This document shows, one piece after another, positions 53,082-55,131 of a DNA stretch of 64,000 nt; the first letter of the stretch is position 1; each line of letters begins with the position of its first letter. The DNA lies in assembly GCF_003008695.1 (NCBI RefSeq), contig NZ_PXZT01000003.1, forward strand, positions 251,439-315,438, read 5' to 3'. A program made the position numbers and the translations under genes. The notes below the pieces were generated by a model that searched no databases, had not been told where the DNA came from, and was given only the letters and a program-made list of their open reading frames with translations. The stretch is from Trichococcus alkaliphilus (lineage in GTDB: Bacteria; Bacillota; Bacilli; Lactobacillales; Aerococcaceae).

Positions 53082-53114
53082 TATAGTATATGCCCCCATA
53101 GGGCATATACTATA
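53082..53114 (-). promoter_or_regulatory. Operator palindrome of the CsoR-family gene
   Basis: Perfect 14-bp arms (TATAGTATATGCCC and its complement) around a 5-nt centre. The G/C tract inside an AT-rich palindrome resembles CsoR-family operators. It sits 20-52 bp before the start, over the likely -10. Confidence 0.78.
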
Positions 53115-53178
53115 CGGAAAAATAGATCAGAAGTCAAAGTCATTGTTGAAGCAATCTGGCTTTGAAAAAAATCTGCAG

Positions 53179-53219
53179 AAAAAAGGACCAATCAGCCAAA
53201 AGCGGGCTGCTTGGTCCTG
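53179..53219 (-). terminator. Terminator of groESL transcript
   Basis: Stem GGACCAAGCAGCC / GGCTGATTGGTCC followed by six T on the minus strand; about 300 nt beyond the groEL stop. Confidence 0.9.
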
Positions 53220-53224
53220 AACCT

Positions 53225-53281
53225 CGTTAGTGCTCAAACTCTGAGCTTAGGATTCATCACACACTGTTATAGTTGAACTCT
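53225..53281 (-). repeat. Degenerate half copy of the groEL-downstream element plus linker
   Basis: TTAGTGCTCA and ATTCATC match the right half of the neighbouring copy (53353-53381), but the pairing left arm is missing. It is followed by linker ATCACACACTGTTATAGTTG, which resembles the linker at 53380-53403. Confidence 0.65.
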
Positions 53282-53379
53282 GAATTGCAGAGGGTTCCGC
53301 CTAAGTTGATAACCACACACGGACAAAAAACGTCCGCTTTGTGGTTATCCTCTTAGTGCTCACCCTCTAAACGCAATTC
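53282..53379 (-). repeat. Structured tandem element, copy 2
   Basis: 98 nt. Outer stem: GAATTGC+AGAGGGT (53282-53295) pairs with ACCCTCT (53362-53368) and GCAATTC (53373-53379), leaving an AAAC bulge (53369-53372; GTTT on the groEL strand). Inner stem: CTAAG/CTTAG, GATAACCACA (53308-53317) with TGTGGTTATC (53340-53349), and CGGAC/GTCCG at the tip. Confidence 0.85.
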
Positions 53380-53403
53380 ATCGTATCCTTATAGTTGAGT
53401 TCT

Positions 53404-53502
53404 GATTCGCAGATACCGCTCCCGTTTCGCAAACCGTGGTTGTCCACAAAAGAGGTGGACATCCACGGTTCACTCCAACGTCCGGGTATCTAAACGCGAA
53501 TC
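53404..53502 (-). repeat. Structured tandem element, copy 1
   Basis: 99 nt. Outer stem: GATTCGC+AGATACC (53404-53417) pairs with GGTATCT (53485-53491) and GCGAATC (53496-53502) with the same AAAC bulge (53492-53495). Inner stem: AACCGTGG (53432-53439)/CCACGGTT and TGTCCAC/GTGGACA. It ends 15 nt from the groEL stop. Confidence 0.85.
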
Positions 53503-53517
53503 ATCACATCCTGTTTT

Positions 53518-55131
<1,614 letters not shown>

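Follow-up and report, generated by a model that had tools for sequence, protein, structure and literature searches.

The array behind groEL

The window analysed here, a 64,000-nt stretch of the Trichococcus alkaliphilus genome, carries on its minus strand an open reading frame of 537 aa (53518..55131), named GroEL by eye and from an initial annotation of this DNA, whose TAA stop codon (53518..53520; direct reading and list of open reading frames) is followed on its 3' side by an array of structured repeat units. We describe these units with two covariance models: R1, built on 11 units of the same genome (alignment A2), and R2, based on an alignment (A4) of 27 units, type-B and distant ones, taken from four genera. 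The first unit (53392..53512, minus strand; R2 128.3 bits, R1 57.0 bits) starts, by direct reading, 5 nt past the groEL stop codon and has a type B core (..CGTTGGAG..hairpin..GAAACGG..). A 2-nt spacer (53390..53391, minus strand), visible as the gap separating the model matches, leads to the second unit (53270..53389, minus strand; R1 130.5 bits, R2 50.9 bits), which has a type A core (..GAGCACTAAGAGG..hairpin..CAACTTAGGCGGA..). Beyond it lies a truncated third unit (53152..53265, minus strand; R1 28.6 bits, E 0.00011 over the window), described in the initial annotation as a degenerate third half copy and recognisable as the 5' half of a different, GAGCTC-type subtype that has lost its 3' arm; the R1 search of the whole genome recovered it as G000:C19:304590-304703. 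Its distal hairpin and the T-run that follows (AGGACCAAGCAGCC..GGCTGATTGGTCCTTTTTT; about 53179..53218, minus strand, direct reading) are probably the intrinsic terminator of groESL. The repeat itself thus probably forms the terminator that had been named before, and the units lie, as had been stated, between the groEL stop codon and a probable terminator. Further on, at 53082-53114 of the window, a perfect 14-bp inverted repeat stands just upstream of a minus-strand gene that looks CsoR-like by eye, and is possibly its operator.

Direct reading of the sequence agrees with the earlier description of two palindromic units starting 122 bp apart. On the plus strand, the spans given for them were 53282-53379 (98 nt) and 53404-53502 (99 nt), with outer arms GAATTGC+AGAGGGT / ACCCTCT+AAAC+GCAATTC in the former and GATTCGC+AGATACC / GGTATCT+AAAC+GCGAATC in the latter, so that each of the six differences between the arms is matched on the opposite arm and the AAAC bulge (GTTT on the groEL strand) is common to both units. 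The linkers (TTATAGTTGA..TCTGA), which form repeat family D1 of the window, are indeed alike, and most of their length consists of unit ends; the unit is therefore about 120 nt long, and the proposed length of 98-99 nt cannot be kept. Folded on the groEL strand, the 306-nt stretch reaches -128.5 kcal/mol (z = -10.95), and none of 100 shuffles folds as well. Only one open reading frame of at least 60 aa touches the two units (53504-53689, minus strand), and it continues from the end of groEL.

A dispersed repeat family at gene 3' ends

The two groEL units are members of a dispersed repeat family and not a feature of groEL. A BLAST search of the array region against its own genome returned 25 matches at E<=10 including itself, the first 16 of them at E 1.2e-4 or better, and the short 5' motif GAGYGTGATGAWTC, with up to two mismatches, occurs at 90 sites versus 11 for the reversed pattern. 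The covariance-model search suggested in the initial annotation yielded many further copies: R1 gave 20 matches in the same genome at E<=1, and at E<=0.01 it matched all 13 genomes of the genus, with 19, 30, 39, 33, 17, 41, 28, 27, 28, 28, 21, 9 and 47 matches (9-47 per genome, partial matches counted). At E<=0.001, R1 matched 18 of 76 genomes of the bacterial family. R2 matched at least 71 of 395 genomes of the order, in at least 28 of 80 genera (E<=0.01), and at least 9 of 398 genomes in a sample of the class (E<=0.001), these counts being lower bounds because the filters were stricter in the order and class searches and no more than nine candidates were scored per genome. Among 20 named genomes, four were matched by R2, namely Bavariicoccus seileri (1 match), Ligilactobacillus salitolerans (7), Paucilactobacillus wasatchensis (27) and Macrococcoides goetzii (1, weak), and no match came from the remaining 16, among which are two Enterococcus, five Streptococcus and two Lactococcus. 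Aerococcus tenax is also a carrier of the family.

At the gathering score, Rfam models found nothing in the window and, at 20 element loci, only one T-box and two tRNAs, all outside the units; weaker Rfam matches (E up to 5) were dismissed as chance. At one locus of genome G012 (L204, 5308-5578, minus strand), a T-box leader upstream of argS scores 96.4 bits. Plasmid and phage sequences searched with the window sequence gave no match; with a distant unit as the query, we obtained one Aerococcus tenax plasmid record and no phage match. Two pattern searches of viral contigs returned 0 and 4 matches, and we attribute the four to chance because they represent one common sequence that R2 does not match. 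A literature search, in which most subscription papers were outside reach, turned up no title or abstract opening recognisable as this repeat family. Taken together, this is a large structured repeat family for which we found no description.

The position of the arrays relative to genes was analyzed in two complete genomes (G012 and G009), where the R1 matches (47 and 28, respectively) were clustered by proximity into 26 and 19 arrays, of which all 26 and 16 of the 19 were used; the three G009 clusters outside this set (near 1672247, 1766688 and 2178677) are present in the orthologue set described below, behind the purH, ABC and CBS genes. We found that 33 of these 42 arrays, two of whose starts (L207 and L231) were shifted by hand to take in an upstream unit, begin between -12 and +8 nt from the stop codon of an open reading frame on the same strand; of random intergenic positions in the same loci, 706 of 6634 (10.6%) fall in this interval. 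The element itself can supply the stop codon: in 10 of the 33 arrays a T and the first AG of the element make TAG, which arises at the unit start only where a T precedes, and in two more the element's TGA is used. Among the nine arrays outside the interval we recognised, by eye, arrays with another repeat in front (L198 and L203) and reverse copies near promoters (L202, L211 and L234), and for the array at L218 the caller probably overlooked the open reading frame. Stop codons are less closely linked to the arrays of other genera than to those of the two complete genomes, with 20 of 37 selected arrays starting in the interval (a selection made without the G033 arrays, L075, L076, L091, L412, L415, L421, L422 and one L403 array). 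An earlier and looser tally, which pooled the source genome, other genomes and the complete genomes, had placed 59 of 92 arrays at a stop codon.

Arrays are also often followed by terminators. With a simple scripted rule applied to 34 of the 42 arrays, a terminator was found within 260 nt after 19 of them and inside none. In some loci of other genera (L407, L409, L410 and L411), where the unit opens with a AGAGTGGGA- or AGAGC-like sequence, a stereotyped terminator (gaggctggga..ttttgtcccagcctc) that is alike from locus to locus comes no more than about 60 nt behind the unit. The genes upstream of the arrays are mutually unrelated and include housekeeping genes; NCBIfam models above their cut-offs identify MnmG, MnmE, YchF, GatB, ArgS, ProS, HisIE, GlnA, PurH, glutathione reductase and DegV. 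Of the earlier idea of a structured 3' UTR of groESL, the covarying structure 3' of groEL stands, and the groESL specificity falls because the family is also found behind mnmG, mnmE, ychF, gatB, argS, proS, hisIE, glnA, purH and others. The units are probably transcribed as 3'-UTR hairpins.

Covariation within units and exchange of their cores

Intact units of the genus measure about 117-125 nt, and in the two complete genomes many copies stand in tandem, repeating about every 115-133 nt. Covariation of paired positions, which the initial annotation had made the touchstone of a conserved structure, is found nearly throughout. In alignment A3 (118 matches at 80 loci, 112 of them distinct, fitted to the model and with the training units included), 94.8% of 4306 cells are paired versus 70.9% after shuffling, 37 of 39 pairs show changes on both sides, and a covariation score of 0.597 compares with 0.173 for shuffled alignments and at most 0.092 for slid structures. 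Some letters of internal loops and bulges are constant over several genera: in A4, the constant letters include GA near both ends, AG past the bulge, GGA facing GA, and CTG. The two ends of a unit are also matched to each other, since GAG is combined with CGTTT in 58 units, GGA with a CAACT-like end in 40 and GTG with CGTTC in five, and other combinations make up only 8 of 111 (six truncated rows and one short row being left out of this count).

To distinguish pairing in RNA from pairing in DNA, we compared G-U with A-C cells, on the premise that selection at the level of the transcript should tolerate G-U over A-C. Raw cells show more G-U than A-C in all three alignments (86 v 50, 46 v 14 and 37 v 10), and when only pairs with 80% or more Watson-Crick cells are counted the excess is not significant (16 v 13 pairs, p=0.71; 5 v 6, p=1; 11 v 3, p=0.057). 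Changes between orthologous units, counted in pairs of units of like length with 1-12 differences (63 units at eight genes), comprise 12 to G-U, 11 to A-C, 18 other pair-breaking changes, four on both sides (two of which are perhaps one event) and 42 at unpaired positions. Both counts are weak evidence against a strong claim of RNA function.

We then compared species at the 3' ends of eight orthologous genes, selected for having a unit there in one genome or more. In the 13 genomes these gave 98 matches, of which 90 regions were used (seven rows of look-alike paralogues and one at a contig end were omitted), and 58 of the 90 hold a match to the repeat: 2 of 11 for mnmG, 7 of 12 for proS, 9 of 12 for the CBS gene, 9 of 11 for glnA, 5 of 10 for gor, 11 of 13 for the ABC gene, 4 of 10 for the DALENE gene and 11 of 11 for purH. 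Many of the apparently empty orthologous sites bear remnants of units. Between G012 and G009, the flanks and unit ends at hisIE are nearly identical and the core is different, and at mnmE one genome has a type B unit and the other a type A unit. The third gatB unit of G012 corresponds to a short remnant in G009; it had been taken for an insertion specific to G012, a reading that we rejected in favour of a deletion in G009. By eye, two units at L204 are chimeric with broken middle stems, and the linkers behind purH are similar across species. No target-site duplication was evident by eye where empty and occupied regions of the DALENE gene were compared, many other empty sites having remnants, and the occupied and empty regions compared gave no clean case of simple insertion with target duplication. 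Gain, loss and exchange among loci are seen, in line with the suggestion of a palindromic repeat that moves between loci, and recombination that swaps cores between matching ends, together with tandem gain and loss, would be the simplest account of these patterns.

Other short repeats accompany the family. A second repeat of about 80 nt (E2; GGATGCACTGTGACCG..CGGTCAAGTGTATCATG..CTCTAAGCGATT..AATCGCAAGAGCCATGACAAA), with two hairpins by eye, occurs within or just before units and also after stop codons (L331, L334, L353, L356, L279, L284 and L285). A third (E3; TTAGGC|ACTCAAACGTCACAGTGCGACGTTTGAGGTC..) takes the place of the 3' arm of units (L351-L354, L356, L284, L047, L226, L232 and L236), with the junction at the same TTAGGC point across different core subtypes. 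Behind a gene at L017 (1463-1523), the unit is represented by its 5' end alone (GAGCGTGATGAWTC), in three short copies at a spacing of about 24 nt, which are either a minimal form or a deletion product.

Relation to known repeats and possible origins

In E. coli, REPs located near stop codons are reported to make the termination of translation slower. Like REPs, BIMEs and REPINs, the present repeat is extragenic and palindromic, lies near gene 3' ends (33 of 42 arrays) and can supply TAG. It differs in being about 120 nt long with several helices, whereas REPs are 20-40 nt; in lacking the GTAG/CGTC tag, its 5' ends being mostly A-GAG, GGA or GTG and its 3' ends CGTTT, CAACT-like or CGTTC; in showing no linkage to RAYTs (R1, 30 of 47 Y1 loci); and in exchanging cores between nearly constant ends. 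By size, tag or RAYT link, the repeat is not a REP. For GTAG REPs, PMC3733652 describes a preference for ORF 3' ends and the supply of TAG stop codons by the termini, and both mRNA stabilisation and gene conversion have already been proposed for REPs (PMC2267715). With MITEs the repeat shares that it is short, non-coding, dispersed and polymorphic for presence or absence.

Within the order, the nearest named lead, by description, would be the Efa/Efar repeats of Enterococcus faecalis, which in the available parts of PMC1590033 and PMC2267715 appear as dispersed structured repeats, larger than REPs and near the 3' ends of CDSs, with Efa-1 given as 163 bp and as a pair of adjacent stem-loops (PMC2267715). 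Compared by these partial descriptions only, the present family resembles them in being a dispersed, structured Lactobacillales repeat larger than REPs and near CDS 3' ends, and differs in that its unit is one long interrupted hairpin and not a pair of adjacent stem-loops; R2 found no match in E. avium and E. xiangfangensis. BOX and RUP of Streptococcus pneumoniae, for which PMC2267715 lists lengths of 84 nt (100-200 in the literature) and 63 nt (108 in the literature), are likewise, by description only, intergenic structured repeats of the same order. R2 gave no match in five named Streptococcus genomes, a set in which S. pneumoniae is not included.

Another likeness is to the attC sites of integrons, which are imperfect palindromes directly after a stop codon that vary in sequence and keep their structure and unpaired bases. 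The present repeat does the same and also adjoins stop codons, but its units follow one another in tandem, carry no genes and lie behind fixed housekeeping genes, and we saw by eye no attC R box motifs at the base of the units.

We consider it probable that the repeat is a non-autonomous, palindromic extragenic family of about 120 nt with a REP/BIME-like lifestyle, that it spreads by the copying routes proposed here and that it has a passive 3'-UTR role; its most likely nature is that of a selfish or neutral palindrome with possible passive effects on 3' UTRs. New copies would arise by ectopic recombination or gene conversion among units with matching ends, further ones by slippage or unequal exchange inside arrays and, more rarely, by transposition through a putative enzyme reading the folded single strand. 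Once transcribed, the hairpins may act as passive barriers in 3' UTRs, protecting mRNA 3' ends or slowing termination, and the interval between stop codon and terminator would be where units are tolerated. Several points speak against this explanation: no target-site duplication and no mobilising enzyme were found (Y1 transposases being the only ones sought), nine of the 42 arrays start outside the stop-codon interval, loop letters constant across genera need a reader of structure that pure copying does not supply, precision at the stop codon needs either a preferred site or purging of others, and arrays of other genera keep less closely to the stop codon (20 of 37).

That the units are functional 3'-UTR RNAs, kept by selection for host use in mRNA stability, small-RNA processing or ribosome behaviour at the stop codon, is possible though unlikely. 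Their sense orientation directly past stop codons, the terminators after many arrays, the strong covariation, the loop letters constant over several genera and the raw excess of G-U cells would all fit such a role; however, this excess loses significance in well-paired positions, changes that break pairs or weaken them to G-U and A-C greatly exceed both-side changes between orthologous units, presence at the same gene varies by species, and units decay. We think it rather unlikely that the post-stop sites are fixed places for docking, where a putative structure-specific recombinase or transposase would serve the matched and nearly constant ends, with the cores as cassettes swapped, added and removed as folded single strands; this would amount to an integron-like exchange without cargo genes across Lactobacillales.

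That the repeat is a MITE which an ordinary DDE transposase mobilises in trans, the long stem serving as its terminal inverted repeats, appears improbable: size, palindromy, dispersion and presence/absence polymorphism all fit, and enterococcal EFAR repeats are classed as MITEs in the accessible part of PMC3733652, but the stem sequence changes freely if it remains paired, unlike terminal inverted repeats read as double-stranded DNA, and no target duplication was seen by eye in the regions compared, such as that of the DALENE gene. It is very improbable that a RAYT (Y1) transposase moves the units as a true REP/REPIN system. Such a system would share with GTAG REPs, in what is available of PMC3733652, the lifestyle at ORF 3' ends and the termini that give TAG stops, and Y1 domains occur in 12 of the 13 genus genomes; against it stand the unit size of about 120 nt, the missing GTAG/CGTC tag and the absence of R1 matches (E<=0.1) within about 1.5 kb on each side at 30 of 47 Y1 loci, and G003, with 33 R1 matches, lacks any Y1 match, as G000, with 19, has only two pieces of a single one. 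We give hardly any credence to the idea that an old, dead repeat preserves its pairing in the absence of selection, through hairpin-templated correction (quasi-palindrome repair); the idea is compatible with the lack of a clear G-U excess and with some both-side changes between orthologous units but leaves loop constancy across genera, the boundary at the stop codon and core replacement unexplained.

In summary, the 3' UTRs of core genes are marked by a structured repeat that has no Rfam entry, reaches tens of copies in some genomes and is present in at least 28 of 80 genera sampled from the order. Because its covariation may stem largely from the moving and swapping of units, the family could mislead the discovery of RNA motifs. 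It is also a natural system in which to study how extragenic palindromes reach stop codons and keep their complementarity, and whether hairpins past the stop codon alter termination or the decay of mRNA. A dedicated mobiliser, should there be one, would be a hairpin-reading enzyme still to be found.
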